Source: Eublepharis macularius (taxonomy: Eukaryota > Chordata > Lepidosauria > Squamata > Eublepharidae). From it: a stretch of 64,000 nt of DNA. A model generated the notes under the pieces. The model ran no database searches. It was not told where the DNA came from and saw nothing but the letters and a program-made list of their open reading frames with translations. Below, piece by piece: positions 13,415 to 64,000 of this stretch; positions within the stretch are counted from its first letter, which is position 1; each line of letters begins with the position of its first letter. The translations under genes were made by a program, and so were the position numbers. The stretch covers positions 8,641,001 through 8,705,000 of the forward strand of contig NC_072795.1 in NCBI RefSeq assembly GCF_028583425.1, written 5' to 3'.

Positions 13415-13569
13415 AACCCAAAGAACATGTCTTTTGATGACCCAAGGTCTAGATATAATATCAAATCAGGGGCCCTTGAACTAGCAGGACCTTTCTAACT
13501 AACACCTTTCTAGTTAATCTTGGGCAGTATTTCTAAACACTGCTGATAATTAGGAAGGTGTGGTGGTGG

Positions 13570-13790
13570 AAAGAGCACACAAGTCAGATTTGACTTATGG
13601 CGACCCCTGGTGGGGTCTTCATGGCAAAACACTAAGAGAGGTGGTTTGCCATTGCCTGCCTCTGCAACCCTCGTCTTCGTTGGAGGTCTCCCATCCAATT
13701 ACTAACCAAGGCCTACCCTGCTTAGCTTCTGAGATCTGATGAGATCAGGCTCACCTGGACTATCCAGGTCAGGTACTGAGCTGGAATTTT
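13570..13790 (-). mobile_element. 5S rRNA-derived SINE (minus strand)
   Basis: 'ctcccatccaattactaacc' and 'accctgcttagcttctgaga' followed by 'tctgatgagatcaggc' is the reverse complement of the internal promoter half of eukaryotic 5S rRNA. It is joined to a SINE body containing 'ggtggtttgccattgcctgc' (13640). Sister copies are at 28905-29130 (minus) and 36353-36560 (plus). The body and decay rule out a 5S gene. 13791-14519 holds nothing recognised. Confidence 0.75.
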
Positions 13791-16047: not shown

Positions 16048-16055
16048 CTTCTGAT

Positions 16056-20426: not shown

Positions 20427-20745
20427 CTAGTAACAAATCCCGTTGTTGGAAAAAATACAATGGACTCTAGAAAGAGGTGGGTGGGCAGGTGGGCATTGCG
20501 TCCTCCTCTGTGACTGATCCTGGCTAGGATCAGGCACGTGCGGGGGGGGGGGGAGGCATTGCCATGTGCTCTGCTCCTAATCTCAGCTGGGGGATGGCAG
20601 AGGTGGGCATTGCCACCCACTCTGCTCTTGATCCCAGCTGGGTGAAGGTTGGGGCAGGCATTTCTACCTGCTCCACTCCTAATGTCAGCTGGATGATGGT
20701 GGGGTACGGGCATTGCCACCTGCTCCTCTTCTGATCCCATCAATA
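20427..20745 (-). repeat. Short copy of the minisatellite-bearing repeat
   Basis: Leader 'gaactagtaacaaatcccgttg' matches that at 14522. About five units with 'gggcattgccacc' follow. Confidence 0.75.
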
Positions 20746-23324: not shown

Positions 23325-25140
23325 CATAGAATCATAGAGTTGGAAGGGGCCATACAGACCATCTAGTCCAACCCCCTGCCCAGTGCAGGATCAGCCTAAA
23401 GCATCTCTGACAAATATTCATCCAGCCTCTTCTTGAAAACTGTCAGTGAAGGGGAGCTCACCACCTCCCTAGGCAGCTGATTCCACTTTTGAACTACTCT
23501 GACCGTGAAAAAGTTTTTCCTAATATCCAGTTTGGTACCTTTGTGCATGTAGTTTTAGCCCATTGCTTTGCGTCCTGCCCTCTGCTGCCAACTGGAACAG
23601 CTCCTTGCCCTCTTCCAAATGACAGCCTTTCAAATATTTAAAGAGAGCAATCATGTCCCCCCTCAACCTCCTCTTCTCCAAACTAAACATTCCCAAGGCC
23701 CTCAGCCTTTCCTCGTAGGGCTCAGTCTCCAGACCCCTGATCATTCTTGTCGCTCTCCTCTGCACCCTCTTGATTTTGTCCACATCCTTTTTGAAGTGAG
23801 GCCTCCAGAACTGCACACAATACTCCAGGTGTGGCCTGACCAAGGCAGTATAGAGGGGGGCTATGACCTCCTGCGATTTCGATGCTATGGCCCCTTTGAT
23901 ACAACCCAGGATTGAATTAGCCTTTTTTGCCACTGCATCACACTGACTGCTCATATTCAGTTTACAGTCCACTCTTACCCCAAGGTCTCTTTCACATATA
24001 CTACTGCCCAGAAGTGTATCCCCCATCTAGTATTTGTGCTTCCCATTTTTGTGGCCCAGATGTAATACTGTGCACTTGTCTTTGTTGAATTGCATCCTAT
24101 TCACAGCTGCCCACTTCTCCAGAGTATTCAGGTCTTGTTGAATTTTAATTCTATCTTCTTGGGTGTTTGCTACTCCTCCCAAATTGGTATCATCAGCAAA
24201 TTTAATGAGCAGCCCTTCCACTCCTTCATCCAGATAATTGATAAAAATATTGAAAAGTACCGGGCCCAAAACTGAGCCCTGCGGCACCCTACTGGACACC
24301 TCCCTCCAATCTGATGAAACGCCTTTGACCACCACTCTTTGGGTGTGGTCCTCAAACTAGTTCCCTATCCACTGAACTGTCCTATAGTCCACTCCACAGT
24401 CTTCCAGTTTGCCCATCAGAATGTCATGGGGGACCTTATCAAAAGCTTTACTGAAATCCAGATAAATCACTTCAACAGAGTTTCCCCGATCCAGTAAGCT
24501 GGTCACTCGATCAAAGAAGGAAACCAGGTTGGTCTGGCAAGATCGGTTAGGGACAAAACCATGCTGACTTCCCCGGATCACTGAGCAGTCCTTCAGATGC
24601 TTACAGATTGATCCCTTTAAAATCTGTTCTAATATCTTCCTAGCAACAGAAGTCAGACTGACCGGCCTGTAGTTTCCCGGGTCGTCCTTCTTCCCTTTCT
24701 TAAAGATTGGGATAACATTCGCTCTTCTCCAATCTTGTGGCACATCCCCAGTCCTCCAAGAGGCCTTGAAGATGATGGACAGTGGTTCTGCAAGTTCTCT
24801 AGAAAGTTCTTTCAGCACTCTTGGGTGCACCCCATCTGGCCCAGGGGATTTGTATTCATCCAGTGCAGCCAGATGCCTCTCCACAACCTCTCTGTCAATG
24901 TCAACTAGCCACTTAGGTGTCCTGTCACATTTTCTATCTCTAGATGTGCCTGAGTTCTTCAGGGAGAAAAAGAGGCAAAAAAGTCATTAAGCCTGTCTGC
25001 TTTTTCTCTGTCCTGCATCAGAGTTTCTCCATCTACTCCCAACAGCAGTCCAATGGCCTCTTTTACCTTGTGTTTGCTTCTCACATATCTGTAGAAGTTT
25101 TTCTTATTGTAGCAAGCCCTCCTGGCCAGACCCAGCTCTT
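23325..25140 (-). mobile_element. CR1 LINE, 5'-truncated, minus strand
   Basis: The ORF2 reverse transcriptase reads down the minus strand from about 24950 to 23520 in one frame with two in-frame stops (24357-24359 and 24027-24029). Motifs: SPGPDGVHPRVLKEL, NYRPVSLTS, DFSKAFDKVPH, PQGSVLGPVLF and the catalytic FADDT box, then the CR1 C-terminal block RPHLEYCVQFW and RRATRMIRGLE. The 3' UTR ends at the typical 'agaatcatagagttggaagg' (about 23325-23345). The good preservation suggests a fairly young copy, but it cannot move: the stops and the missing 5' part disable it. Confidence 0.92.
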
Positions 25141-28904: not shown

Positions 28905-29130
28905 ACTGGTGGTCAGTGCCCTCAAGTCATAGCTGACTTATGGCGACACTTAGTGGAGTTTTCATGGCCAGAGACTGAGAGGGGTGGTTTGCCATTGCCT
29001 GCCGCTGCAACCCTGGTCTGCGTTGAAGGTCTCCCATCCAAATCCTAACCAAGGCTGACCCTGCTTAGCTTCTGAGATCTGATGAGAAGAGGCTCACCTG
29101 GGCCATTCAGGTCAGGGCAGGCTGTGAACT
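28905..29130 (-). mobile_element. 5S rRNA-derived SINE (minus strand)
   Basis: 'ccctgcttagcttctgagat' and 'ggtctcccatccaaatccta' match the reverse of 5S rRNA. The body 'ggtggtttgccattgcctgc' is shared with 13570-13790. Confidence 0.75.
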
Positions 29131-36352: not shown

Positions 36353-36560
36353 AAACTCTGACCTGGATGGCCCAGGTTAGCATGAATTTTTCTTGGAGGC
36401 TAAGCAGTGTTGACCCATATTAGTACTTGAATGAGAGACAACCAAGGGAATTTAGGGTTGCTACACCAAGGCAGGCAGAGGCAAATCACTTGTGTTCCTG
36501 ACTTGCCTTAAAAACCCTGTGGGGTTGCCATAAGTTGGCTACAACTTGACAGTACTTTCC
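36353..36560 (+). mobile_element. 5S rRNA-derived SINE (plus strand)
   Basis: 'ggaggctaagcagtgttgac' and 'tagtacttgaatgagagac' correspond to the 5S rRNA internal control region. The body includes 'ggggttgccataagttggct'. Decayed. Confidence 0.7.
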
Positions 36561-38222: not shown

Positions 38223-38239
38223 GCCCCCACTAGGGATGT

Positions 38240-38405
38240 GCGTTTCGGCATTCTGAATGCCGAAAGAATGCCGAAACAAAAGTGTTTCGGCATTCTTCAA
38301 GAATCCCGAAACGTTTCGGGGAATGCCGAAACGTTTCGGGATTGCCGAAAGAAAAACCCGAAACGTTTCGGGATTCTTTCGGCATTCTTTCGGCATTCGA
38401 GAATC
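38240..38405. promoter_or_regulatory. Left subterminal motif cluster (CCGAAA/TTTCGG)
   Basis: Thirteen CCGAAA or TTTCGG words in about 160 bp, several joined as the palindrome CCGAAACGTTTCGG, many followed by 'gaatg' or 'cattc'. hAT transposases bind short subterminal repeats, so this is the likely binding platform. A perfect-looking hairpin ('attttgctagccg' with 'cggctagcaaaat') follows at 38411-38454. Confidence 0.75.
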
Positions 38406-39053
38406 GCCATTTTGATTTTGCTAGCCGTTTGCCTTAGCAAGCGGCTAGCAAAATCCTGCTGGAAGCAAAGGCTTCCTGCAGGCTCTTAGAAGAGGGGAGG
38501 GGGGGAGAAGGAGTGAATCACTCACTCCTTCTGTCACCCCCCACCCCTCTTGCAAAGGAGGATAGGGAATCCTGCTTTGCCTTGCAAATGCAAGGTGCAA
38601 GCATTGCATTGCACTTTGCATTTGCAAAGCAGCAGAGATTCCCGCCAAAACTAACAGGTAGGGGAGGGGGAGCAGGAGGAGGGTGGCTCTTGGAGTGTGG
38701 GTTGGGAAAGGCAGGGGACTGGGGACTTTAGGAGTCACCAATCCCACTGCTGCATTCTCATGCCAGCCAATAGATTTAAATCTTTGGCTGAGGCTGCAGC
38801 AGGGGATTTAAATTTGGAGCAAGACTGTCTGGAACACTTCTGTTGCTGCTGCTGCTGAGCTGTGACCGAGAGAGGAGAAGAAGAGAGACTGCACCTGGAG
38901 CCTGGAGGACATCTGCCTGGAGGATCAACTGTGCTGGACATCCTGAGAGGACACCTGGTAGGCCTTTTTAAAATTTTTGTAAATTTTTTTGATGCCGGGC
39001 AATGTGCTGCTGTGGCCTGCCTCTGCAAAAAGGTGTTGCAGTTTATTCTTGGC

Positions 39054-42000
39054 ATGGCCTGGGGGACAGGTTGGGCAGACAATGTTTGATGGTGGGGTGG
39101 GGGTTTCAGCATTGGTTGTTGTGCTTGCCTTCTTAAAGCTCGATCCACTGTTTTAAGATTAAAACAAGAGTGTGCCAGCTTTGGGCCTACACAGGCCAGA
39201 AGCCTTTCTTCTGGCTGGCTCTCACAGTTGTGCTCCACAATCTGGAATGGTGTGGCTTGCTTTTCTGTGTCTGGTCCCCTGCTTGCAAGGATTCCCAACA
39301 GGCTCCGTCCTGATCAACTGTGCCAGCCTGTGGGCCACACACAGGTATGGCCTGGGGGACAGGTTGGGCAGACAATCTTTGATGGTGGGGGGGGGGGGGT
39401 TTCAGCATTGGTTGTTGTGCTTGCCTTCTTTAAGCTTGATCCACTGTTTTAAGATTAAAACAAGAGTGTGCCAGCTTTGGGCCTACACAGGCCAGAAGCC
39501 TTTCTTCTGGCTGGCTCTCACAGTTGTGCTTCACAATCTGGAATGGTGTGGCTTGCCTTTCTGTGTCTGGTCCCCTGCTTGCAAGGATTCCCAACAGGCT
39601 CCGTCCTGATCAACTGTGCCAGCCTGTGGGCCACACACAGGTATGGCCTGGGGGACAGGTTGGGCAGACAATCTTTGATGGTGGGGGGGGGGGGTTCAGC
39701 ATTGGTTGTTGTGCTTGCCTTCTTTAAGCTTGATCCACTGTTTTAAGATTAAAACCAGAGTGTGCCAGCTTTGGGCCTACACAGGCCAGAAGCCTTTCTT
39801 CTGGCTGGCTCTCACAGTTGTGCCTCACAATCTGGAATGGTGTGGCTTGCCTTTCTGTGTCTGGTCCCCTGCTAGCAAGGATTCCCAACAGGCTCCGTCC
39901 TGATCAACTGTGCCAGCCTGTGGGCCACACACAGGTATGGCCTGGGGGACAGGTTGGGCAGACAATGTTTGATGGTGGGGGGGGGGGGGGGTTTCAGCAT
40001 TGGTTGTTGTGCTTGCCTTCTTTAAGCTTGATCCACTGTTTGAAGATTAAAACCAGAGTGTGCCAGCTTTGGGCCTACACAGGCCAGAAGCCTTTCTTCT
40101 GGCTGGCTCTCACAGTTGTGCTTCACAATCTGGAATGGTGTGGCTTGCCTTTCTGTGTCTGGTCCCCTGCTAGCAAGGATTCCCAACAGGCTCCGTCCTG
40201 ATCAACTGTGCCAGCCTGTGGGCCACACACAGGTATGGCCTGGGGGACAGGTTGGGCAGACAATCTTTGATGGTGGGGGGGGGGGGTTCAGCATTGGTTG
40301 TTGTGCTTGCCTTCTTTAAGCTTGATCCACTGTTTGAAGATTAAAACCAGAGTGTGCCAGCTTTGGGCCTACACAGGCCAGAAGCCTTTCTTCTGGCTGG
40401 CTCTCACAGTTGTGCTTCACAATCTGGAATGGTGTGGCTTGCCTTTCTGTGTCTGGTCCCCTGCTAGCAAGGATTCCCAACAGGCTCCGTCCTGATCAAC
40501 TGTGCCAGCCTGTGGGCCACACACAGGTATGGCCTGGGGGACAGGTTGGGCAGACAATCTTTGATGGTGGGGGGGGGGGGTTCAGCATTGGTTGTTGTGC
40601 TTGCCTTCTTTAAGCTTGATCCACTGTTTGAAGATTAAAACCAGAGTGTGCCAGCTTTGGGCCTACACAGGCCAGAAGCCTTTCTTCTGGCTGGCTCTCA
40701 CAGTTGTGCTTCACAATCTGGAATGGTGTGGCTTGCCTTTCTGTGTCTGGTCCCCTGCTAGCAAGGATTCCCAACAGGCTCCGTCCTGATCAACTGTGCC
40801 AGCCTGTGGGCCACACACAGGTATGGCCTGGGGGACAGGTTGGGCAGACAATCTTTGATGGTGGGGGGGGGGGTTCAGCATTGGTTGTTGTGCTTGCCTT
40901 CTTTAAGCTTGATCCACTGTTTTAAGATTAAAACCAGAGTGTGCCAGCTTCGGGCCTACACAGGCCAGAAGCCTTTCTTCTGGCTGGCTCTCACAGTTGT
41001 GCTTCACAATCTGGAATGGTGTGGCTTGCCTTTCTGTGTCTGGTCCCCTGCTAGCAAGGATTCCCAACAGGCTCCGTCCTGATCAACTGTGCCAGCCTGT
41101 GGGCCACACACAGGTATGGCCTGGGGGACAGGTTGGGCAGACAATCTTTGATGGTGGGGGGGGGGGGTTTCAGCATTGGTTGTTGTGCTTGCCTTCTTTA
41201 AGCTTGATCCACTGTTTGAAGATTAAAACCAGAGTGTGCCAGCTTTGGGCCTACACAGGCCAGAAGCCTTTCTTCTGGCTGGCTCTCACAGTTGTGCTTC
41301 ACAATCTGGAATGGTGTGGCTTGCCTTTCTGTGTCTGGTCCCCTGCTAGCAAGGATTCCCAACAGGCTCCGTCCTGATCAACTGTGCCAGCCTGTGGGCC
41401 ACACACAGGTATGGCCTGGGGGACAGGTTGGGCAGACAATCTTTGATGGTGGGGGGGGGGGGGGGTTCAGCATTGGTTGTTGTGCTTGCCTTCTTTAAGC
41501 TTGATCCACTGTTTTAAGATTAAAACCAGAGTGTGCCAGCTTCGGGCCTACACAGGCCAGAAGCCTTTCTTCTGGCTGGCTCTCACAGTTGTGCTTCACA
41601 ATCTGGAATGGTGTGGCTTGCCTTTCTGTGTCTGGTCCCCTGCTAGCAAGGATTCCCAACAGGCTCCGTCCTGATCAACTGTGCCAGCCTGTGGGCCACA
41701 CACAGGTATGGCCTGGGGGACAGGTTGGGCAGACAATCTTTGATGGTGGGGGGGGGGGGGTTTCAGCATTGGTTGTTGTGCTTGCCTTCTTTAAGCTTGA
41801 TCCACTGTTTTAAGATTAAAACCAGAGTGTGCCAGCTTCGGGCCTACACAGGCCAGAAGCCTTTCTTCTGGCTGGCTCTCACAGTTGTGCTTCACAATCT
41901 GGAATGGTGTGGCTTGCCTTTCTGTGTCTGGTCCCCTGCTAGCAAGGATTCCCAACAGGCTCCGTCCTGATCAACTGTGCCAGCCTGTGGGCCACACACA

Positions 42001-42888
42001 GGTATGGCCTGGGGGACAGGTTGGGCAGACAATCTTTGATGGTGGGGGGGGGGGGGTTCAGCATTGGTTGTTGTGCTTGCCTTCTTTAAGCTTGATCCAC
42101 TGTTTGAAGATTAAAACCAGAGTGTGCCAGCTTCGGGCCTACACAGGCCAGAAGCCTTTCTTCTGGCTGGCTCTCACAGTTGTGCTTCACAATCTGGAAT
42201 GGTGTGGCTTGCCTTTCTGTGTCTGGTCCCCTGCTAGCAAGGATTCCCAACAGGCTCCGTCCTGATCAACTGTGCCAGCCTGTGGGCCACACACAGGTAT
42301 GGCCTGGGGGACAGGTTGGGCAGACAATCTTTGATGGTGGGGGGGGGGGGGTTCAGCATTGGTTGTTGTGCTTGCCTTCTTTAAGCTTGATCCACTGTTT
42401 GAAGATTAAAACCAGAGTGTGCCAGCTTCGGGCCTACACAGGCCAGAAGCCTTTCTTCTGGCTGGCTCTCACAGTTGTGCTTCACAATCTGGAATGGTGT
42501 GGCTTGCCTTTCTGTGTCTGGTCCCCTGCTAGCAAGGATTCCCAACAGGCTCCGTCCTGATCAACTGTGCCAGCCTGTGGGCCACACACAGGTATGGCCT
42601 GGGGGACAGGTTGGGCAGACAATCTTTGATGGTGGGGGGGGGGGGTTCAGCATTGGTTGTTGTGCTTGCCTTCTTTAAGCTTGATCCACTGTTTTAAGAT
42701 TAAAACAAGAGTGTGCCAGCTTTGGGCCTACACAGGCCAGAAGCCTTTCTTCTGGCTGGCTCTCACAGTTGTGCTTCACAATCTGGAATGGTGTGGCTTG
42801 CTGTTCTGTGTCTGGTCCCCTGCTAGCAAGGATTCCCAACAGGCTCCGTCCTGATCAACTGTGCCAGCCTGTGGGCCACACACAGGTA
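39054..42888 (+). repeat. Tandem array, 13 units of ~295 bp
   Basis: The marker 'acaggtatgg' recurs at 39341, 39637, 39931, 40229, 40523, 40817, 41110, 41405, 41702, 41998, 42293, 42588 and 42882. Spacing is 293-298 bp, with one earlier unit from about 39054. Units differ by a handful of substitutions and by the length of a G run (about 9-14 G). Shared variants, such as 'ctttgggcc' versus 'cttcgggcc' and 'gttttaag' versus 'gtttgaag', spread over neighbouring units and show homogenisation. Short frames repeated in each unit (WNGVACLSVSGPLL) are by-products. Confidence 0.95.
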
Positions 42889-43560
42889 TGCTGCTTTGGC
42901 CAAGGTAACCCTTTTTGGTTGCTGGCCTGGCACTCACAGTTGTGCTCCACAATCTGGAATGGTGTGGCTTGCGTTTCTGTGTCTGGTCCCCTGCTTGCAA
43001 GGATTCCCAACAGGCTCCGTCCTGATCAACTGTGCCAGCCTTCGGCCCACACACAGGCCTGCTGCTCCGGCTTTGGTAACCCTTCCCGTTTGCTGGCCTG
43101 GCACTCACTGTTTTGCTTCACATTCAGGTTGTTTATCGTTGGTGGACCTCTTCTGGACTGGACTGCACTTGGTGGACATCGGCCTGCAGATCTCTGCGTG
43201 GAGGATCAACATTGCTGGACATCTGCACTGGTGGACTGGTAGGGTTGTTGTTAAATTTGGTTTTTGAGCTTATGTCTGCTGCTGTGCCTACCTGCGAGCA
43301 TATGCTTTGGCTCTGTCTTTATGGCTTGGGCCGGGGGGGGGGCATTTTCTGGTTGGGCAAGAGGATATTGTTTGGGGGTTAGGGGGGCCAGCATTGATCG
43401 CAGTGCCTGCTTTCTTTCATGTTTCATTTTTCAAGTTTGAGTGTGGGGTGGGCATGAACTGCTGTTTCACAGGACTAAAAAATGAGTGTGCCAGCTTCTG
43501 GCCTGCACAGGCCAGAAGCTCTGCTGGGTGGATGTGTTTTGTTTTGCTGCTGGTTGGCCC
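42889..43560 (+). repeat. Degenerate units and exon-like module right of the array
   Basis: 42890-43090 holds two diverged partial units ('aactgtgccagcct' ... 'caacaggctccgtcctgatc'). 43155-43238 is a module resembling 38905-38957 ('ggaggatcaac' ... 'ctggacatc'), ending before 'gtaggg'. 43400-43540 is another diverged unit ('gtgtgccagcttctggcctg'). Confidence 0.7.
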
Positions 43561-43673
43561 TAGCCTTTAAGGGGGGGGGGGCTGACTTGGCTTGTGCAAC
43601 GGGGCCTTGAATTTTGGGGTTGCGTGTGCGGCGTGTGGTGTTGACTCTGCTAACATTTCCAATTTTCTTGACA

Positions 43674-44426
43674 GCATCGTGGAGGAGAGGAGGACCAGCT
43701 GCAAGACCGCCTGAACATCGCTGGACTGCAGGACTGGTGTTAGTGTGAGCGAGTCCGGGTTCACATTTGGGTGGCCTTGGGGGTGGGTTCTTGCTAGCTT
43801 GGGAGGGGGGAGGCTCATCTTCAAAACACCACATCCACACCCCACACCGACATACCACAGATACATCGGTCCCGCTAAATAGTGTCTCTTAGGTAGGTAG
43901 GCCAGTTGGTAGGTGATCAGTGGATAATTGCCCTCAACTTAATTATTAGGGAAACCGAGCCTAGTTTTTTTTAAAAAACTAAATAGGGACTCAGCAGGGA
44001 AAGCATTAGTGAGTGAGTGTTAGGTTTGAATTCTATATATATATATATATATATATAAAAATTTGTAATAGCTGTCAATAGGCTTCCCATTAGTGCCCCC
44101 ATAACTAGGGTTCCACTGCCCATCTCTGGCACACGTGGTGGTGCCAGGCCGGCCCGGGCATACTAGTGTGTGAGTGTTTAAGGCTTTGTCACCTGTTATT
44201 GGGGTTTAGGGCCAGCTCAATTCCAGAGGAATTCAGCTGATTGGCAGGCTCAGGTTCCCTGACATAAATAGGGTTGCTTAAAAAGGCACTTGATTGTTCA
44301 TCTCCAAGTCACAGAGCCACTAGAAACACAGATTTATAGCAGGTTAGTTAGGTCTTGAAAACAAAGTTGACCTTTGTTTTCTAAATCTTTTCTGATTAGT
44401 TAGGGTTGAATTTGGGAGGGGAAAGT
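43674..44426 (+). other. Putative leader of the transposase gene
   Basis: A splice-acceptor-like 'ttccaattttcttgacag' ends at about 43673. The next 60 bp repeat the module with 'ggaggagaggaggaccagct'. Further on are a (TA)n run (44033-44057) and AT-rich TATA-like words 'acataaatag' (about 44262) and 'ttaaaaaggc' (about 44278) ahead of the ORF. Either a promoter or a spliced 5' UTR is possible; the sequence alone does not decide. Confidence 0.4.
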
Positions 44427-47165
44427 ATGTCAGAGAGGAAAGCAGAGAGGGGACCCGGGGGAAAGGCTAGGGAGAAATCTAGAGGGGAGGAGGGGAGGGG
44501 GAGGGGGACTGCTGCGGCAGCCCCTCCATCTGAGCGGAGGAGGCCCTCCCCTGCGCTGCTGCCGTTCACCAGCCTGGCTTCTGGTGACAGGAAGAGGGTT
44601 CGCAAGACTCTCTTTCCTGAGGCAGCTGCTGGAGGGCCACCCCCAACCCGGGTGCGTGAGGCAGGGGCTGGCACTGGGCAGGGGCCTGCTGCTGAGGCTC
44701 CTCCTCCTCCAGTGGTTGCGAGCCAGCTGCTGGAGGAGGGGCAGCATGTGGTGTCTCCTGGGATGGGCGCGGAGCACATGACTTTCCCTGCGCTCCCGCT
44801 CACCCCAGGAACCCGGAGGATGTTGGAGGAACTGCCCGTGAGACCCCCCCTGGGGCGGTCCACCCCAGTTTCCTCTGAGGCCAGCAGCAGGCCTCTCGCG
44901 GCTGTGCAGGAGGAGAGGACGCGGGAGGAAGAGGCAGAGACTGTGGTGGAAGAGCCCACATCTCTGCCCCTTCAGCCTCGTCCATCCCCACCTGCCCGGC
45001 CGAGAGTGGGACACGGTGTGTCCGGCCAGAGCACCTCACAGGAGGTGCCGCAGGGTGGTCCCGAACGCGCTTCTCCTGGGAAGCGTGGGATGCCCTTTTC
45101 CTCCGAACTCTGGAAGCACTTCCAGACAACGGAGGATCCCCGAGCAGCCCTGTGCCTGCATTGTAGGCAGCGCGTCAGCCGTGGCAAAGATGTGTGGCAT
45201 CTCTCCACGTCTGGGATGAGGTACCATATGAAGAGGCACCACCAGGCGGTGCTTCTTCGGGAGGAGGGTTCGAGTGGCGCCGCACGGCCGCCAGCTAGCC
45301 AGAAGGAGGCAGGCTCCTCTGGTGCTCTCCCCCCAAGGGTACCTGCAGGAAAGGGACGCCAAGCCTCTCTCCCGGAGATGCTTGGTATGCAGGGCGCTAG
45401 TGTGCCCAGAGAGGGGATCCGGAGGGCGAGCAGGCGCATCACGCGCCACATCGTCAACATGATAGCAGTGGATGGGCAACCGTATTCCGTAGTTGAAGAC
45501 TTCGGCTTCTCAGGGCTGCTCCAAGATTGCTTTCCCTGGTACGCCGTCCCTGCTCGCACGTCGTTGAGCAGATCGGTGGTGCCCTCGTTTTACAGGGCTG
45601 CCAGGGATCATGTGAAGGCACAGCTGTCCCGGGTTGCCGGGAGAACTGTGCACTTCACATCGGACATCTGGACCTGCCCAAGTGTGCAGCAAGCGTACCT
45701 CTCGCTTACTGCTCACTGGTGGGAACCCGAGTCGGTTCTGGGTGGGGGCCGGGGGGAGGTGCCTAGCACAGCTAGACAGGGAAGGATGCGAGACCGCCAG
45801 GCCGGCTACTGCAAGGCCTTGCTTCACGCCGAGGTGCTCGACGTGTCCCACACGGCGGAGAACATCGCTGCCACCTTAAGGAGACAGTTGGACGAGTGGA
45901 TAGGCCAGGGACCCGCCACCGTGGGATGCATGGTGACGGACGGTGGCAAGAACATGAGGGCAGCGGCGCATCTAGTGAGCCGAGAGAGCGTCTACTGTGC
46001 CGCTCACAAGCTTCACCTAGTGGTGAGAGATGCGCTGGGGTTGGGCTCCTCGAAGGAACCCGTGGATACCCGGACCCGTGAACTCCAGTTACTTGTCCAG
46101 AAATGTCGGAGGCTCACGGGTCACTTCTCGCGCAGCGTGAAGGCCACGCACGAACTGCGCCAGACACAGGTCAGGACAGGTGTGCCAGAGCACGCTCTGA
46201 TCACTGACGTCAGCACTCGCTGGAACTCCACCTGCGCCATGCTTGAGCGCTTGGTGGAGCAGCAGGCCGCACTCCACGCGTGGCTCTCCGAGCACCGCGG
46301 TGCGAGTCAGGTGGGTGAGTTCAACCGGGAGGATTGGCTCACCATCACCCAGACAGTGGAGGTCCTGAAGCCCTTCAAGGACTTCACTGTGGCGGTCTCG
46401 TCAGACACGGCGACCCTCGGTCTGGTCATTCCCCTGGTGCACACGCTCCAGAGGAATCTGGCCACCCTTGCAGACCGGGTCGCGCCCCGTGCTGACCTTG
46501 TTCCAGCGGTGCGCGCATTAGTGAGAAGGCTGCAGCAGGGCATAGCTGCCAGGCTAACTCCTCTCACTAAGGAAGAGTCATACATGTTGGCGACCATGTG
46601 TGACCCGCGCATAAAGGGCACTTTCGCCGAGCGGGACGGGAACCTCACCCAAGCCAGAGACGGGCTCTGCTCTTGGGTGAGGCGCAGGCAGGCCAAGAGG
46701 GGACGCCTGTCGACAGGGGGGACGCAAGAGGGGCCCTGCCGTGCGGGTCCCTCTGACGCCCCCTCTGCGCAGGCCCCCCCCGAGGCCACCACCGGAGTGC
46801 CGATGGAGATGGAGATGCTCCGGTGGGCCCTCGTCCCCTCTGGGGTCGTGAGGACCGTGAGAGAGGATCCGGCGGAGGCGATGGTCAGGGACTACCTCGC
46901 GGAGCCCTGCGAGTCGCTCTCCACCGATCCGCTCAGCTACTGGGCCAGGAAGGAGTCGGTCTGGCCGGACCTCTCCCTCGAGGCGCAGCGGCTGCTCTCA
47001 TGCCCTCCGACGAGCGTGGAGAGCGAGCGCGTCTTTTCACATGCGGGCGACATTGTCGGCCCACATCGCACTCGCCTTCTCCCATGGAGAGTCGAGCAGT
47101 TGACCTTCCTGAAGGTCAACTCTCGCCTCTTCGATTTCTCAGGACTGGACTTCCAGAGTGACTGA
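44427..47165 (+). CDS. hAT transposase, 912 aa, uninterrupted (ZBED-type)
   Basis: Single-exon frame from ATG 44427 (MSERKAERGPGG) to TGA 47163-47165. The in-frame TTG at 44406 is not a plausible start. Residues 1-220 are proline/glutamate/glycine-rich and disordered. A BED zinc finger at about 225-275 has C243, C246, H267 and H271. The RNase H-like catalytic core follows, with D413 (in FTSDIWTC), D505 (in MVTDGGKNM), a CxxH (C524, H527) and RWNST (598). The insertion domain is helical. E867 (SVESERVFSHAGD) opens the C-terminal hAT dimerisation region, about 835-900. All catalytic residues are present and there is no frameshift. It cuts the element out and inserts it with an 8-bp duplication, acting in the nucleus. 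Its G+C is far above the AT-rich surroundings. Automatic pipelines might call it a ZBED1/ZBED4-like host protein; the terminal repeats show it is the element's own transposase. Confidence 0.93.
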   Translation: MSERKAERGPGGKAREKSRGEEGRGRGTAAAAPPSERRRPSPALLPFTSLASGDRKRVRKTLFPEAAAGGPPPTRVREAGAGTGQGPAAEAPPPPVVASQLLEEGQHVVSPGMGAEHMTFPALPLTPGTRRMLEELPVRPPLGRSTPVSSEASSRPLAAVQEERTREEEAETVVEEPTSLPLQPRPSPPARPRVGHGVSGQSTSQEVPQGGPERASPGKRGMPFSSELWKHFQTTEDPRAALCLHCRQRVSRGKDVWHLSTSGMRYHMKRHHQAVLLREEGSSGAARPPASQKEAGSSGALPPRVPAGKGRQASLPEMLGMQGASVPREGIRRASRRITRHIVNMIAVDGQPYSVVEDFGFSGLLQDCFPWYAVPARTSLSRSVVPSFYRAARDHVKAQLSRVAGRTVHFTSDIWTCPSVQQAYLSLTAHWWEPESVLGGGRGEVPSTARQGRMRDRQAGYCKALLHAEVLDVSHTAENIAATLRRQLDEWIGQGPATVGCMVTDGGKNMRAAAHLVSRESVYCAAHKLHLVVRDALGLGSSKEPVDTRTRELQLLVQKCRRLTGHFSRSVKATHELRQTQVRTGVPEHALITDVSTRWNSTCAMLERLVEQQAALHAWLSEHRGASQVGEFNREDWLTITQTVEVLKPFKDFTVAVSSDTATLGLVIPLVHTLQRNLATLADRVAPRADLVPAVRALVRRLQQGIAARLTPLTKEESYMLATMCDPRIKGTFAERDGNLTQARDGLCSWVRRRQAKRGRLSTGGTQEGPCRAGPSDAPSAQAPPEATTGVPMEMEMLRWALVPSGVVRTVREDPAEAMVRDYLAEPCESLSTDPLSYWARKESVWPDLSLEAQRLLSCPPTSVESERVFSHAGDIVGPHRTRLLPWRVEQLTFLKVNSRLFDFSGLDFQSD

Positions 47166-47525
47166 GGTGAGCCCAACTTGTGGCCTGCATCCTCTATGAG
47201 TCCAATCCTTTGGAATCGCGCTCTCCCCTGTATAAAACCCTGTATATACAGTTAAAACCGGCCAGTAGAGGGAGGGTGGTTAGGAACCAGTGGCAAAGGG
47301 AAAACACCCAGCAATTTGAAAGCCCCCCCCCCCAGGGTATTCAAAACATCTCCCATCACTGAGACATACCCTGTGGGACCAAATTTATTATGAAAAATAA
47401 TGCCCCAGAAACATGGATTGCTACTGGAGGGAGAAACAGGTTAGATAGGGATTGCTTAGGTGTTTTTATCAGATGAAATCATTGTAAAAAAAATTGTAGA
47501 AGAATTGTTGTACTGTTTTTTGAAA

Positions 47526-47770
47526 GTTGATGTTCTGTTCATGTAAAAAAAAGGAAAAAAAAACCAAAAAAAAATGTTGTGATTATGTTTTTTAAAAGTT
47601 GATGTTCTGTTCATGTAAAAAAAAGGAAAAAAAACCCAAAAAAATGTTGTGATTATGTTTTTTAAAAGTTGATGTTCTGTTCATGTAAAAAAAAGGAAAA
47701 AAACCCAAAAAAAAATGTTGTGATTATGTTTTTTAAAAGTTGATTGAATGTTCATGTTTAAAAAAAAAAA
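47526..47770 (+). repeat. A-rich tandem repeat, ~71-bp unit
   Basis: 'gttgatgttctgttcatgta' starts at 47526, 47598 and 47668, and a diverged copy ('agttgattgaatgttcat') near 47739. Each is followed by runs of A and 'gttgtgattatgttttttaa'. It sits 360 bp after the transposase stop, in the presumed 3' UTR. 47166-47525 has no other recognised feature. Confidence 0.85.
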
Positions 47771-48020
47771 TTTGATGTTAATGTTGGGTTTGCATGGTTG
47801 GGGGATGCGGGAAGAGTGGTGGATGGGCACCGGCCAATGATGATCTCTCACAGATGTTCCCAGGTAAATTCTGAGGCTGGTGTGGGGGTGGGGGGAGACC
47901 TCTGCAGAACTGCTCCAGAAATACCATTGTCCAGTGCCTTGGAAGTGCCCAGTTCAGCTTTGTGTGTCTGAACTGAAAGCACAGCCACAGGAAATGACAT
48001 AGGTTCTGCTGGACCCTGTT

Positions 48021-48550
48021 GCAGTGGTTCCCCCCCATTAAGTCGTTTTATGGAGGGAGAGTTGTATTAGGCTGGTAGTTATTATGATCATCTTCTGTTT
48101 CCATGCCCTGTTGTGCCCGCTCACTATGTGACCTGTTGTAATGTTCAAAACTTTACTGTTTGTCCATTTCAAAAAAAAAATTGTGTTTAAGATTCTCTGA
48201 TGTGTAGTTAATTGTGTTGTGTTGTGCTATGAGGGACAATAAGTGTAATATGTTGTGATTTGTTGACCACTTGTAATTTGAAAATGAGAAAATAAAGGTT
48301 TTTTAAACTTAATGATTGTGTGTCTGTGTTCCCTTCTTTGATGGGAGGTTGGTTCCCAGCATAGGGAACAATGGGGCAGGCTGGCCAGCCTGTTCCTGGG
48401 GTACTCGGTGTGGGGCAGCTGAGGGTGGTTTTGGTTCTGAGAGGGGCTGAGTGGAGGATTTGGGTCTGTGTGTGGCAGCTGGGGTGGGGGAACTGGGTTT
48501 GTGTGGGGCTGTAAGGAGTGGACTATGGGGGATGAGAGCACTGGTCGTCC
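48021..48550 (+). repeat. Intra-element duplication, copy 1
   Basis: From 'gcagtggttcccccccatta' the sequence is almost identical to 51036 onward for 370 bp. It includes 'gaaaatgagaaaataaaggt' (AATAAA at 48291, a likely transposase polyadenylation signal), then continues with looser similarity (G-rich 'tgtgtggcagctggg'). Confidence 0.88.
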
Positions 48551-50785
48551 CTTTTGCCCAAGTAGGCCCCTGCTACTGTCCTGGTGTGGGCTTCCATGCC
48601 TCTATCAGTTGCTGGCCCTCCTTTGCCATCTTTTTCAGAAATTTTCCTAGGGCTGCCAAACTCCTGGTTGGGCTTGAGTTCAGGTTAGAGAGAGTAGTTC
48701 CCTACAGATAAACTGGCTGCTTCCAAGGGCAATCTCTTTAGAGGGCAAATGCGGACCATGGATTCTGGGGGAGATCCCTACTCAGATTTTCCTTTGCACA
48801 AGTCCCACCCCCAAATTGCCAGTAACTTCCAAGGCCAGAGTTTGCCACCCCAGAGAGATCCCGTTCCCACCCTCTTAGCCTTGGCATGAAAGTTGTAGCC
48901 CCCATGGAACGCTTCCAGGTTCCTGATTCCAAGCCCAATGACACCAATGTAAGACAATCCAGACCTCCATCAAAAATGGATTTTAAGTAGCAGTGGGATT
49001 GGGCTGCATTTCAGTCATTCACATATCTGGTTGTGTTCCCAAACATTTAGCTTATGGTTTTTTAAATCGGCGTATGGCACTTAAGGACACTTTTAAATGG
49101 TTCTAAAAACATATTTTTATTATGAAGTATTTAATGTGGCATTGATCAAGGGCAGGCCTTTTGGCCAAATGAGCAGTATCAGTACAGTAAAATTTAGACA
49201 AAGCTCATAGGAGGAAAAAGCATTCACACTGTGAAGTGGGAAGAAAGTTTCAATTTACATGTACCATGGACTCCGAAAAAGACATGTCCAGACCAAATCA
49301 GGCCTGCTTTCTCCCTTGAAGATATCAATTGATGATAGTGCTTATGTCACATCATGAGAAGACAAGGTTCACTAGAAAAGACAATAATGCTAAGAAAAAT
49401 TGAAGGCAGTAGGGAAAAGAAGAATACCCTAGATGTGGTAGATTGACTTCGGTTTGCAATACATGGACAAGGTTTTTGGGATACTGTGGAGCTCAATATA
49501 ATTCTAAAGTACACCACAAGTGATTTGAATGCATAAAACATACAGACACATACACATAAAATGTATATACCCCCTCCCCACCAAATTAAAGGTTTATCTT
49601 ATGCCCCGGTTTTCTCCCCCATGGGAACCTAGAGTGGTTTACACATTGCTGTTCTCCCTTGATTTGTTTCACCCTCATCACAACCAGGCTAACAATAGAC
49701 AGCTGCTCCATGCCTCACATTGGAGTGACTCCACCGATGGCCTTCTTAGTTGTATGAGGGGGTGGAGGGGGGGGGGGGAGGAAGGAAACAACGCACTCCT
49801 GCCCACTCTATCTGGGGCCTAGGTTACCAAATTGCTTGGCCTTGGCAAGGAGCCAGTGGTGGGGCGGCACTGGTTCTGGGGCCCCGTCAAGAACATTTGT
49901 CCAGGGCCCCAAAATCACCTAGACTGCCTCTGGAAAACACAACACAATTGTTTACTTAGGCTGAGCCAAGAACATCCATCAAGCCTACAAGGCACAGAAT
50001 CAGAGTCTGCCAGATTCTAGACCAACTCTCTAGCCATTGCACTACAGTGGATATCTAAAAATTGTTCATACCCCCACCAGCAACTTGAACATTTTTCTCC
50101 AAAAGGCACACAACTTGGCTGGGTCTCAAAAAGGACTATGATGCATGGGCCTGTCAATGCATACTGGTACTAAGGCTCTGGCCGGGGGGAGGGGGGCATT
50201 GTGCCAATGCCACCCTGGCTTTGGAAGGGGACAGTAAAATAGAAGAAATAATCTAGCTTCAGTGCCTCCCCCCCTTCTCTCTCTCTCTCTCTCTCTCTAT
50301 AATGTGAGTGAAAACATTACTATACCATCACTGAAGCCTACAGGATACTTAGGGTCTGTTCACACACGCATGATCATTTAATGGCAATGCTCTGGCATGA
50401 TGATGTCTGTTCTAGGAAGTGATGTGATCATCACACAAGGCTGGGGAGCACGCACAATTCACAGCAGGCAGATTTGGGCCACAAGGGATCCTGCTTTGGC
50501 CTGCAGGGCCCAAATCAGCCCACTGCAAAGCACAGGCATACTCTCAGGGCAGCCAGATGACATCAGTGACATCACGGCAGCAGCCCCTGGAGCGTACCTT
50601 GAAGGCTCATTCACTGACTTTCCCCCTTCGGGGTGATAGGTGAGAGTGGGGGATCCCCCACCAAGGGGAAACGGATCCCTAATTGTGTCTGAGGTTGTGG
50701 AAATCAAATGGGTCATATTGCTTCTGTCTTTGAGGGACTTACATGCACATTATATTTAACTCCAGATTTCTTGATTGTCAAGGAA
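48551..50785. other. Spacer inside the giant hAT with SINE remnants
   Basis: No transposase-related coding. 49985-50052 is a decayed tRNA-SINE head on the minus strand ('gattctagaccaactctcta' reversed) and 49590-49700 may be its tail. 50265-50305 has a (CT)n run. 50350-50640 is CpG-bearing non-coding sequence. Probably later insertions into the element. Confidence 0.45.
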
Positions 50786-51035
50786 TGCATGTGGTGGGGG
50801 GTGGGGGGAAGGGTGGGAAAAGGGCCCCTGAGGGTGAGGGTGGCATTTGGCATGCAAAATGCCACCCCTGGCAAGACAAGCCTCTCCCAGCTGTCAGTGG
50901 TAGAGATGAGAGCAGAGCACCCACTTGGGGAGGCCATGAAATGGCCCCCCCAAGTGGGAGCAGGCTGAGCCTTGGTGGGGGGATGGGAGGAAGGGTGGGA
51001 GAAGGGCCCCAGAGGGTTGGGGGGGGGATTTTGAT
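50786..51035 (+). repeat. G-rich ~175-bp repeat, first block
   Basis: Partial units with 'tggcatgcaaaatgccaccc' and 'gccatgaaatggcccccccaa', themselves near-palindromic. Repeated at 51722-52060. Confidence 0.75.
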
Positions 51036-51735
51036 GCAGTGGTTCCCCCCCATTAAGTCATGTTATGGAGGGAGAGTTGTATTAGGCTGGTAGTTATTAT
51101 GATCATCTTCTGTTTCCATGCCCTGTTGTGCCCGCTCACTATGTGACCTGTTGTAATGTTCAAAACTTTACTGTTTGTCCATTTCAAAAAAAAAATTGTG
51201 TTTAAGATTCTCTGATGTGTAGTTAATTGTGTTGTGTTGTGCTATGAGGGACAATAAGTGTAATATGTTGTGATTTGTTGACCACTTGTAATTTGAAAAT
51301 GAGAAAATAAAGGTTTTTTAAACTTAATGATTGTGTGTCTGTGTTCCCTTCTTTGATGGGAGGTTGGTTCCCAGCATAGGGAACAATGGGGCAGGCTGGC
51401 CAGCCTTCTCTGCGGGTGGTGGGGGGGGTCAGGGGGGTGGTTGTCTGTGTGCCAGGGCAGGTGCTCTTTCCCAGGGACGATTTGGCACTGCCACCATTGT
51501 GGCACCCCTTGTCTGTGCAGAACTGCCCTGGGAAAGAGAGTTTAGGGGTTCCCAAAAGGGGAGGGCAGGCCAGCCTGTTCCTGGGGTTATGGTGGGTGTG
51601 GGGCAGGTGGGGGTTGATTTGGGTCTGTGAGGGGCTACTGGGGGGATTTGGGTCTGTGTGTGGCAGCTGGGGGGGAATTGGGTTTGTGTGGGGCTGTGAA
51701 GGGTGGACTTTAGGGGCTGAGAGCACCTACTTGGG
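51036..51735 (+). repeat. Intra-element duplication, copy 2
   Basis: Matches 48021-48550 with few differences over the first 370 bp. It carries an extra ~160 bp at 51407-51567 ('gggcaggtgctctttcccag'). Confidence 0.88.
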
Positions 51736-52060
51736 GAGGCCATGAAATGGCCCCCCCAAGTGGGAGCAGGCTGAGCCTTGGTGGGGGGTGGGAGGAGGGG
51801 TGGGAGAAGGGCCCCAGAGGGTTGGGGGGCATTTTGCATGCAAAATGCCACCCCTGGCAACACAAGCCTCCCCCAGCTGTCAGTGGTAGAGATTAGAGCA
51901 CCTACTTGGGGAGGCCATGAAATGGCCCCCCCAAGTGGGAGCAGGCTGAGCCTTGGTGGGGGGTGGGAGGAGGGGTGGGAGAAGGGCCCCTGAGGGCTGG
52001 GGGGCATTTTGCATGCAAAATGCCACCCCTGGCAAAGGAAGCCTGCTTCTTCATTTTTTC
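51722..52060 (+). repeat. G-rich ~175-bp repeat, second block (two units)
   Basis: 'cctacttggggaggccatga' starts near 51725 and 51899. Each unit includes 'cattttgcatgcaaaatgcc', a 20-bp near-perfect palindrome. Confidence 0.8.
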
Positions 52061-52264
52061 CCCATAGGAAATAATGAAGAAGATGCTCCTTTATGGGAGG
52101 ATGGGGGGACCTGCTTTGGGGGGCCATAACATGGCCCCCCAAAGTCCAATCTGTCTGAAACTTGGGTGGGTGTTAGAGAAGGGTTAGAGGAAGGTCCCCA
52201 CCAATTTTGGGCTTATTTGGTGGGAAAATGCCTCCTCCAGGCGTCCTGAAAGACGGAGGCATTT

Positions 52265-52412
52265 TCCCAGCAAAAAAACCCGAAAGAATCCCGAAAGAAT
52301 GCCGAAATAATGCCGAATCCCGAATCCCGAAAGAGATTCTTGTTTCGGCATTCGGCTAATGCCGGTAGAGAATCTTGTTTCGGGTAATCCCGAAACAAGA
52401 AAGCCGAAAGTT
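52265..52412. promoter_or_regulatory. Right subterminal motif cluster (CCGAAA/TTTCGG)
   Basis: Eight CCGAAA or TTTCGG words plus variants CCGAAT in about 145 bp before the right terminal repeat, mirroring the left cluster. Confidence 0.72.
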
Positions 52413-52439
52413 TTTTCCTTGCACACCCCTAGCCCCCAC

Positions 52440-52613: not shown

Positions 52614-54046
52614 GACCTGGCAATAAGGATGATTTATTATCCTCTAGCCTTTATCAGAAAGGGTATGAATTAAGAGCAGGTATTGCAGGGACGAACAAGT
52701 TGTTCCAGAGAACCAAGTTCTGACATGGTAGCTAGCATCATGTTCACAGAGCCAGTCATTTGCATCCAAACCTGTCTCCATCTTTCCTGGGAAAGCCAAC
52801 CCCGTACAGGACATTATTTTGCAAGTAATAACAAGGTTGTATTGTCGAAGGCTTTCACGGCCGGAGAACGATGGTTGTTGTGGGTTTTCCGAGCTGTATT
52901 GCTGTGGTCTTGGCATTGTAGTTCCTGATGTTTCGCCAGCAGCTGTGGCTGGCATCTTCAGAGGTGTAGCACCAAAAGACAGAGATCTCTCAGTGTCACA
53001 GTGTGGAAAAGATGTAGGTCATTTGCATCTACTCAGGAGGGGTGGGGTTGAGCTGAGTCATCCTGTAAGAATTTCCCAGGGTGTGGAATGCTAATGGCGG
53101 GAGGCTTCACTGTATCCTGAGGAGGTTCTTTTGCATATGGATTGGTACTTGATGTGCTAATCTTCTCTGCAGGGCTATTGTAGGGGATAGAATGTTTTGT
53201 TAGCCTGGTGTTTTTCAGAACTGGAAACCATGCTCTGTTCATTCTTAAGGTTTCTTCTTTCCTGTTGAAGTTTTGCTTATGCTTGTGAATTTCAATGGCT
53301 TCCCTGTGCAGTCTGACAAAGTAGTTGGAAGTGTTGTCCAGTATTTTGGTGTCCTGGAATAAGATACTGTGCCCTGTTTGAGTTAGGCTATGTTCAGCCA
53401 CTGCTGATTTTTCAGGTTGTCCAAGTCTGCAGTGTCTTTCATGTTCTTTTATTCTTGTCTGGATGCTACGCTTTGTGGTCCCGATGTAAACTTGTCCACA
53501 GCTGCAGGGTATACGGTATACTCTTTTCCACACTGTGACACTGAGAGATCTCTGTCTTTTGGTGCTACACCTCTGAAGATGCCAGCCACAGCTGCTGGCG
53601 AAACGTCAGGAACTACAATGCCAAGACCACGGCAATACAGCCCAGAAAACCCACAACAACCACCAATAACAAGGTTGTTATGATAGGCTCCCCATCCACA
53701 CATATATTTTATTAATTTATTTATGAAATATATACCCTGCTTTTCTGCTCTTATAAGGGCCACTGAGGTGGCTAACAAATTAAAAATATATTAATAAAAC
53801 AACTCTCTTCCCAAAACATGACATCAGTTGTGATGAGGATGATTTATTATCCTCTAGCCTTTATCAGAAGAATTAAGAGCACATATTGCAGGGATAAACA
53901 GCTTGTTAAAGAGAACCAAGTTCTGACACTGAAGGTAGCAACATGTTCACAGAGCCAGTCATTTGCCTTCAAATCAGTTGCCGCCTTTCCTGGGAAAGTC
54001 AATCCTATACAGGCCATTATTTTTCAAGTAACAATAAGGTTGTTAT
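52614..54046 (+). repeat. Two tandem copies of an unnamed ~430-bp repeat
   Basis: Unit: 'gatgatttattatcctctag', 'ccaagttctgacatggtagc', 'gacattattttgcaagtaat', then 'ataccctgcttttctgctct' and '(a)aaacatgacatcagttg'. Copy 1 is 52614-52839 plus 53678-53828; copy 2 runs from 53829 to 54046. The same dimer, with the same junction, is found at 57500-58200, and a single copy at 60620-61000. Confidence 0.7.
52840..53664 (-). mobile_element. Penelope-like element, 5'-truncated
   Basis: The minus-strand frame 53533-53033 contains the GIY-YIG endonuclease motif (VYRIPCSCGQVYIGTTKRS, then RIKEHERHCR), the C-terminal domain of Penelope-like retroelements. The reverse transcriptase is missing. The ends (52840-53000 and 53520-53664) are inverted copies of the same terminal repeat. 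It is flanked by a 13-bp duplication AATAACAAGGTTG (52827-52839, 53665-53677). The frame lacks an ATG and is a fragment. Confidence 0.88.
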
Positions 54047-62202: not shown

Positions 62203-64000
62203 GTATGTCCTTTAGAATCGTTAATCTGCTGAGTAAGAGGATGAGTAAAGAGCTTTTTGACTTCTAGCCTCCCTATGGTAAAAATAGGTTACTTAGCTGA
62301 AATTGTTCTATGCTGCCACTTATTTAAGTTCTGCCCCAATCCAAGATAACCTTAATAATTCTATGGATTTTAGAACAGATTAGGTGCTTTGGTCCCTCTT
62401 CGTAGGAGGATATTTCTGCATCTGCCACAGGAAGGGAGACTGCCTTCCTTCCATTTCTTCAATACCAGCATATAATGCCCAAATCAGAGGACTTACACCT
62501 GCATAAGGGAGGGGGAATGGGCTGTGTACAGGTAACCTCTAAAAATAAATCACAAGTAAGCAACCTAGTCTCCTTCTATGGGGTTTCTGCCATCCATCAT
62601 ATTGGTGGCTGTGAATGAGACAAACTTAATAGTGGGCGCAAGAAAACCAGGGGTGGAGGAACTGCTCTTACAAATGCAGCACCAGCTTTGGTACGTAAAT
62701 AAATGGCACAATCTTTCATAAAGATAATTGATGTCAAATAGAATCTTTGGGCAGGTCTGTAACAGAAACATCTGCAGAGGAAGCAGCAAGTTATTGGCCG
62801 TTTTCACTTGTCCTTATTTTAACAACGTCATGTATGCCAGCCTGCATCCTGCCATTACTATGTTTTACATCTGTACTAAACTGCTAACATGAAATGTACT
62901 GAGCTAAAGGGGGTTGTCTACTAGTGAGGTTGTTATCTAGCAAAAGTATTTACTTTCATTTCTGGAGCAAGTGTCCTTGGACACGGGCTGTGAATAACAA
63001 GCATTGTATCTTTTCTCAAAGCTGTGCTAATTTCACTGTGTGCTATGTCTAACTAAAACAATCAGTTCCCATGTAACAACTTGTGGGTTTCGCACCAGAA
63101 TATCAACACACCCAAAGGGCGGGAAGTCTCCCTGTAACTAGCTTGATTCCATTTTGAATAATCACTTATGCTAGTTACTACCTTTGAGTGAACACCTAGG
63201 ACTGGATGGCTCTCCAATGAAAGTTACTTCAACCAATGCAACCGAGTGCTTGCTGTGAGGGACTTGGGGATCTGGCTGCCTAGGACTGACACAACAACTT
63301 TAACAACATCCCATTTATATAGCACCATTATATTGTAGCACCGTAGTTTCACATAGTATCACAGCTGTACACACATCCTCTTAATCCACCCATGAAAACC
63401 CGTCATCCTCCCGTAATCGTTGCATTTTCTTTGATCACACAGATTTCCTGTTTATTATGCTTTGTAATGCTTCTCTAGCTGTTTTTTCACCTGCATGAAA
63501 ACAATCGGAAACACTTTTCCAGAGACTGCCAACTCAACCCCTCCTCCTTTTTCAGCTTCTGTACCCTAGGAAGAGATTTTCCCACCCAAGACCAGGAATT
63601 GCAGAAGCCTTTCCAGGTTCCTGGCAACAGTGATGCCAATTTTTTTTTTAAATGGACACCTTTATTGCTCTATTTGTGACATCTTGTTTAATAGGAATCA
63701 ATAACAAACACAGCCGACAATTGACGAACATTGAAATTAAATGTCTACTGTTAAAGTTTTACTTTCCGAATAATGGAATGCCCCCAGCCAGGTTTTTTTT
63801 TTTCATTTTCTCATAGTGAGAGCGCAATTGTGCAAATCCACTAAATAAATGCAAACTGGTTTTTGAGCAGGAACATGATGGCAGCAGTTCTCGGTCAGGA
63901 AGAGTGGACAATTTGGGCAGAAGTCCTTCTCTTTCTGATGATGTACCAAAGGTATGGCTGACAGAGAACCATAGAGCTCAGGATCAGATCAACCACCAGT
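62203..64000 (+). repeat. Intron 1 of gene B, paralogous to the window start
   Basis: 62203-62791 has no counterpart in the window. 62792-62818 and about 63334-64000 match bases 24-740 (with small gaps such as the missing 'cgttta' near 63741). The 515 bp between (62819-63333) are present only in gene B. Confidence 0.85.

Follow-up and report, generated by a model that had tools for sequence, protein, structure and literature searches.

Evidence for a large, recently amplified and probably autonomous Ac-type hAT family in Eublepharis macularius

The window analyzed in this study, a 64,000-nucleotide stretch of the Eublepharis macularius genome (NC_072795.1, 8,641,001-8,705,000), carries a hAT element of ~14.2 kb at 38231-52431. 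We hold with high confidence that this element belongs, as a complete copy, to a large, recently amplified and probably autonomous hAT family of the Ac type. As far as visible, the family is ordinary in mechanism; it is unusual in its size, the uniformity of the copies read, the number of its intact transposases and its evolving tandem array. Genome-wide searches covered the host assembly (2.24 Gb, 72 contigs), and the window copy was compared with 12 others: 10 young copies, taken in order from the top of a list of 40 left ends matching 100%, and an old and a mid-aged copy from the second and third places in the list of matches to a 40-mer of the transposase open reading frame (ORF). All 13 complete copies carried exact 8/8 octamer duplications and were 12.6-15.3 kb long, the window copy included.

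Ends and transposase of the window copy

The element and its flanking duplications were laid out as follows:

38223-38230, no strand: left target-site duplication GCCCCCAC, read directly and by a chance scan
38231-38242, + strand: left terminal inverted repeat TAGGGATGTGCG; the 42-mer that starts at 38231 has 261 exact matches in the assembly
38231-38430, + strand: left subterminal region, in which TTTCGG/CCGAAA was counted 13 times
38431-39050, + strand: remainder of the left arm; imperfect palindromes (e.g., 38565-38643) visible on sequence inspection
39051-43097, + strand: tandem array of ~294-bp composite units, each A (~123 bp) plus B (171 bp), in the order (AB)x13 B, by repeat analysis
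43098-44426, + strand: transposase gene, 5' region; TATA-like CATAAATAGG at 44263 is the putative promoter
44427-47165, + strand: transposase ORF, 912 aa, with BED finger (226-273), D413, D505, E867, CxxH (524-527) and hAT dimerisation region (821-896)
47166-48541, + strand: 3' region, containing tandem repeats of ~70 bp (47514-47767) and the polyadenylation signal AATAAA at 48291 as putative transcript end
48017-48430, + strand: 3'-end segment with a second occurrence, 96% identical, at 51032-51442; other copies of the element carry the duplication too
48542-50790, + strand: F segment, 2.25 kb, non-coding, occurring once within the window and present in 12/12 other copies; its 40-mer occurs 696 times in the assembly
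50791-52231, + strand: right arm, with the duplicated 3'-end segment (51032-51442) and ~175-bp repeats (51720-52044), by repeat comparison
52232-52431, + strand: right subterminal region with 8 TTTCGG/CCGAAA motifs, by motif count
52420-52431, - strand: right terminal inverted repeat TAGGGGTGTGCA (minus-strand reading); the last 40 bp are identical in 10/10 other young copies
52432-52439, no strand: right target-site duplication GCCCCCAC, an 8/8 match to the left octamer

The original prediction for this window had proposed terminal repeats together with an exact 8-bp duplication, and both were confirmed beyond chance: TAGGGATGTGCG and TAGGGGTGTGCA were identical at 10/12 positions, and GCCCCCAC was repeated 8/8. 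When all position pairs flanking the transposase within 25 kb were scanned for an 8/8 duplication and an inverted repeat of at least 10/12, two pairs passed, and a hAT-like start was present only in the 38231/52431 pair. Thirty first-order Markov sequences yielded a mean of 0.2 passing pairs (maximum 1), none of them hAT-like. Terminal inverted repeats of hAT elements begin with (C/T)AG, and the short TAGGGATGTGCG/TAGGGGTGTGCA repeats are of the hAT superfamily type. Of the TTTCGG/CCGAAA motifs in the window, 13 lay in the left 200 bp of the element, 8 in its right 200 bp and one in the 13.8-kb interior; six were outside the element. By analogy with Ac and Hermes, we propose these clusters as candidate binding sites for the BED finger of the transposase.

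The uninterrupted 912-codon transposase that had been predicted, with its BED finger, complete catalytic triad and dimerisation region, was recovered, with D413, D505 and E867 at the residues expected. The N-terminal BED zinc finger, a feature that is frequent but not invariable in hAT transposases, matched PF02892 with 34.2 bits (cut-off 20.6, E 2.5e-08), and the C-terminal dimerisation region matched PF05699 with 57.4 bits (cut-off 21.4, E 1.3e-15). In an alignment of 52 of the 54 homologues fetched (P0050 and P0054 were left out), the triad columns read D, D, E in 41/52 relatives, and the triad was complete in the window protein. A structure predicted from 26 aligned sequences reached a mean predicted local distance difference test score (pLDDT) of 69.5, with low confidence over the first ~220 residues, and a Foldseek search of the PDB with this model returned Hermes chains for all 12 matches at E<=0.001 (best E 2.7e-17). 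The complete DDE triad and the Hermes-like predicted fold agree with an RNase-H-like core of hAT type and with membership of the hAT superfamily.

The TATA-like CATAAATAGG, 164 bp upstream of the ORF, was retained in 13/13 copies, and AATAAA at 48291 was retained in the same context in 12/13. This retention of both signals makes one unspliced transposase gene of ~4 kb likely. A Pfam scan of the 7 other ORFs of the element found nothing above the cut-off and two weak matches below it. The observed/expected CpG ratio was 0.65 in the transposase ORF (44427-47165) and 0.07 in the tandem array (39051-42926), a contrast that suggests different methylation or origin.

Copies, target sites and age of the family

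Exact matches in the assembly numbered 261 for the left-end 42-mer, 716 for an ORF 40-mer and 696 for an F-segment 40-mer, with 0 for the reversed control of each, and the left-end and ORF counts ruled out a single relic. The left ends of the mid-aged and old copies carried changes inside the 42-mer; the lower left-end count is at least partly due to such altered left ends in other subfamilies. On contig C1, for which the listings were complete, 18/20 exact left ends were followed by the ORF 40-mer in the same orientation at a distance of 4.9-7.8 kb, and 16/20 by F at 8.2-11.1 kb; F lay downstream of 60/76 ORF matches, and the ORF lay upstream of 61/65 F matches. The two C1 left ends lacking an exact ORF 40-mer were considered as short derivatives, and this was rejected, as both followed the element through the 5 kb read and into the array. 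At about 700 copies of ~13.5 kb, the family would make up ~9-10 Mb, or 0.4% of the genome, completeness having been checked in few of these copies. Relatives in viral contigs were found neither by protein search nor by left-end pattern.

The young copies were complete in 10/10 cases (12,716-15,339 bp), with identical last 40 bp and each with its own perfect octamer. Every block of the window element outside the array, F included, was present in order at 98.1-100% identity, and 38231-39050 was at least 99.6% identical across the 10 copies. The mid-aged copy (12.6 kb) and the older copy (12.9 kb) were bounded by the exact octamer pairs CTCATGAG and CTCTTCTG, respectively. The ends of the window element therefore recur together in other copies, with matching duplications in 10/10 young copies and in the two copies of other subfamilies, and the possibility that the left and right ends came from two unrelated insertions was refuted.

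Target preference was determined from 51 octamers, 11 verified on both sides and 40 from left flanks only, on C1 and C3. A was found at position 7 in 45/51 and T at position 2 in 36/51; 33 had both and 3 had neither. This nTnnnnAn pattern is that of the Ac family. The target pattern of the Buster family is nnnTAnnn, and TA stood at positions 4-5 in only 2/51 octamers. The pattern nTnnnnAn has been printed for Hermes (PMC2803484, PMC10368747).

Related empty sites, which had been proposed as a check, were found for two young copies, c2 and c5, inserted at different points of one repeat family and providing reciprocal sites for one another. The joined flanks of each aligned gap-free across the junction to the other's repeat copy (248 bp at 79.8%; 260 bp at 78.8%), with a single octamer 7/8 identical. 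These sites bear indirectly on the presumed cut-and-paste mode of transposition. The flanks themselves (c2, L002/L012; c5, L005/L018) were 75-77% identical over ~1.4 kb, and their repeat family appeared LINE-like (long interspersed element), judged from the letters alone. The flanks of the 11 young copies otherwise shared only short stretches of dispersed repeats. Across C1-C4, 92 exact left ends formed 13 adjacent pairs closer than 200 kb, compared with 1.98 expected if uniform and a maximum of 9 in 5,000 simulation runs (C4 length approximated). Local jumping is a habit of Ac, and the clustering fits either local jumping or favoured insertion regions. Copies c6 and c7, 58 kb apart on C2, differed by 0.23%, which is no special similarity and gives no help to local jumping.

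Array-free divergence among the 11 young copies averaged 0.264% (range 0.010-0.533% over 55 pairs), in line with the young family that had been predicted. Vertebrate sequences accumulate 1-2 substitutions per 10^9 sites per year; rough dating at that rate puts the mean divergence at about one million years and the split of the closest pair at tens of thousands of years. That pair, c9 and c10, differed at 1 of 10,460 aligned bases, although the two lie 176 kb apart with different octamers and unrelated flanks. The ORF was intact in 7/10 other young copies, or 8/11 with that of the window. In addition, the best 50 of 17,305 tblastn candidates, on contigs C1-C11, were all 100% identical over 912 aa and stop-free; as the best matches rank first, this is a lower bound on the number of such ORFs and not a proportion. 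The many identical intact ORFs and the c9/c10 pair indicated that movement was very recent. As judged from these reading frames and divergences, the element is probably autonomous and the family is likely currently active.

Size of the element and competing explanations

The large size of the element is a property of the family and not of an insertion into the window copy, because the young copies without their arrays still measured 10.3-10.46 kb and because F and the duplicated 3'-end segments were also carried by the older copy. In that copy (12,863 bp), ~1.5 kb of additional DNA interrupted F close to its right end, and the blocks were 93.7-97.6% identical to those of the window. All 13 copies read, whether young (11), mid-aged (1) or older (1), carried the same non-coding right arm. 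The original prediction had called the element unusually large, which held for all 13 copies when compared with Ac (4.6 kb; PMC3260210) and Tgf2 (4,720 bp, with a 686-aa transposase; PMC4890040). It had also attributed the extra length to structured repeats rather than cargo genes. The lack of cargo was borne out by the Pfam scan of the 7 ORFs, but repeats explain only part of the length, as the array accounts for ~4 kb of the window copy and F contributes 2.25 kb of non-repeated, non-coding DNA.

The array differed among copies in a manner suggestive of its history. The old copy had a simple 171-bp array (ABBBBBB) and the mid-aged copy a mixed one (ABABABBABABBABABB), and the 11 young copies had (AB)nB with 8-16 A units, three of them beginning ABB. 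Pairwise differences among 12 array units of the window were 0-11 substitutions. The composite AB unit seems to have arisen from a simple B array and then to have expanded, an order that is unproven with one copy for each earlier stage. The young copies were 99.47-99.99% identical outside the array yet differed by whole array units.

An accidental origin of the size, in which a hAT element of ~5 kb was swollen in this copy by a nested insertion of F and by local satellite expansion, would account for the 96%-identical duplicated segments that flank F in the window and for the near identity, and hence recent amplification, of the array units. However, F and its surrounding duplication stood at the same place in 12/12 other copies, one of them ~5% diverged, and the F 40-mer count (696) approached that of the ORF (716). 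The young element without its array would still exceed 10 kb, and we consider an accidental size very unlikely; the shared arrangement likewise ruled out nested-insertion and long terminal repeat (LTR) readings of 48017-51442. Spread by segmental duplication or satellite-type amplification instead of transposition could be read from the clustering of left ends, but that clustering also fits local jumping or hot regions, each of the 13 complete copies had its own 8-bp duplication, and related empty sites exist. The unrelated flanks of the 11 young copies, save for dispersed repeats, ruled out segmental duplication for the copies read, and as a general account it is extremely improbable. The names of the database relatives ("ZBED4-like") would suit a reading of the ORF as a host gene domesticated in the manner of ZBED4 and not as a transposase. 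We give this next to no credence, as the ORF occurs in hundreds of dispersed copies, lies within terminal repeats in 13/13 copies read and has a complete DDE triad.

A recent burst that has since fallen silent, with young copies no longer mobile because of host silencing or because mobilisation ended, is a serious possibility that falls somewhat short of an even prospect. The broken ORFs in 3/11 young copies (one premature stop, two frameshifts) speak for it, and the CpG-poor array and right arm would fit methylation; the many identical intact ORFs and the pair differing at 1/10,460 bases argue against it. The same broken ORFs weigh against a complete, recently amplified and autonomous family, as do three other points. 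The exact F 40-mer was missing downstream of 16/76 ORF matches and 4/20 left ends on C1. Young copies were over-represented in our sample, since copies were chosen by a perfect left end. The ratio of nonsynonymous to synonymous substitution (dN/dS) between the window ORF and the older copy was ~0.59, with 21, 20 and 23 changes at the three codon positions, an even spread, and a signal too weak to demonstrate strong purifying selection.

Relatives, proposed mechanism and other repeats

Protein searches scored the ~7,990 candidates sharing most words, and the nearest whole protein among these was Eublepharis P0001 (55% identity, 100% coverage). In P0001, N replaces D505 and the segment of E867 is absent, whereas the window transposase is complete at both. 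A search with residues 345-912 listed 50 proteins, among them proteins of Pogona, Anolis, Crocodylus, frogs and a caecilian. In a quick maximum-likelihood tree of 49 rows (48 relatives and the window protein; P0005, P0007, P0017 and P0031 left out), the window protein paired with P0001 (SH-like approximate likelihood-ratio test [SH-aLRT] 99) inside a tetrapod clade, and its next neighbours were a Pogona protein and a second Eublepharis protein (SH-aLRT 99). A squamate host is probable on this placement. Anolis carolinensis contributed nine closely similar rows. The relatives in the tree were ZBED4-like and ZBED1-like, with no Buster or plant Ac row among them. The "ZBED4-like" hAT transposases of Eublepharis, Pogona, Anolis, Crocodylus and amphibians (P0001, P0008, P0009, P0011-P0015, P0018-P0028, P0030) share the DDE core, the hAT dimerisation region and, in most, the BED finger with the window protein. 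Transposases of the ZBED4-like and ZBED1-like kinds have been filed under Ac (PMC3606216).

Maize Ac also makes an 8-bp duplication. The ends of Ac are 11 bp long, and AAACGG hexamers in the subterminal 200 bp on either side bind its transposase cooperatively (PMC3260210). The clustered CCGAAA-type motifs of the window element are comparable to these; unlike Ac, the element is three times larger, uses another hexamer, and has a tandem array and a long non-coding right arm. In maize B73, filler-bearing elements form the largest Ds-related class (486/903), and those that were tested all failed to respond to Ac (PMC3260210); in contrast, the 10 exact-left-end copies read completely here were full length. 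The likeness to Hermes of the housefly lies in the predicted fold, the BED finger with subterminal repeats and the target pattern nTnnnnAn. However, Hermes has 612 aa rather than 912, and its subterminal motif is AAGT-type rather than the TTTCGG-type proposed here (PMC10368747). The BED domains of Hermes bind left-end subterminal repeats and not right-end ones (PMC10368747). Tol2 and Tgf2 of fish are likewise vertebrate hAT elements; unlike Tgf2, the present family is 12.6-15.3 kb and belongs to another host group. Repeats of the transposons Atenspm and Tetris also gave rise to tandem arrays (PMC9659126), but here up to 16 composite units lie upstream of the transposase ORF. No array-bearing hAT element was found in the available part of PMC9659126, and a literature search by title and abstract, with Repbase and most subscription papers outside it, returned none that we recognised as this element.

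A mechanism consistent with these features can be proposed. The transposase would be made from an unspliced gene with a promoter near 44263 and poly(A) near 48291. Its BED fingers would gather on the clustered TTTCGG subterminal motifs, which are more closely packed on the left. Cleavage at the 12-bp ends by the hAT catalytic core would be followed by reinsertion of the whole 13-15 kb element at nTnnnnAn octamers, producing the 8-bp duplications. Copy number would probably rise through sister-chromatid repair of excision gaps or through jumping during replication, and copying through the 294-bp array may alter the number of units. This would account for the whole-unit differences between young copies whose sequence outside the array is near-identical.

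These observations are compatible with a presently mobile giant amniote hAT whose unit of movement is 13-15 kb, whose architecture has persisted through successive waves rather than breaking down into short derivatives, and whose composite array changes by whole units as copies multiply, a reading that we hold tentatively and that may well prove too strong. If it were true, the non-coding arms and the array could have a useful role in cis (in gap repair, spacing or regulation), and each copying event would be recorded in the array length. The apparent array stages (ABBBBBB, mixed, (AB)nB) could preserve a natural trace of how tandem repeats are copied as the element transposes, and the array offers an example of a satellite-like repeat growing within a transposon. 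Active hAT elements have been called rare in vertebrates (PMC4890040). With many identical open transposase genes and matching ends in one assembly, activity becomes directly testable. An active element of this kind would be an unusually large natural cut-and-paste transposon, with a bearing on the cargo capacity of hAT elements and on vertebrate gene-delivery tools.

Other repeats were observed in the window. Near the insertion, an ORF at 53033-53533 (-) resembled a GIY-YIG-type endonuclease (Pfam T5orf172, E 0.015, below the cut-off), which we presume may be the tail of a Penelope-like retroelement. A reverse transcriptase fragment at 24360-24983 (-) (RVT_1, E 8.2e-15) is probably a LINE remnant. 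Related copies of a 5S-rRNA-like repeat were present at 13564-13773, 28907-29116 and 36358-36535, with an Rfam 5S match at 13658-13773, and are perhaps a 5S-derived short interspersed element (SINE). A diverged minisatellite of ~51 bp was related across 14733-14894, 16042-16754 and 20549-20739, and 87%-identical repeat copies lay near the two ends of the window, at 97-737 and 63359-64000.

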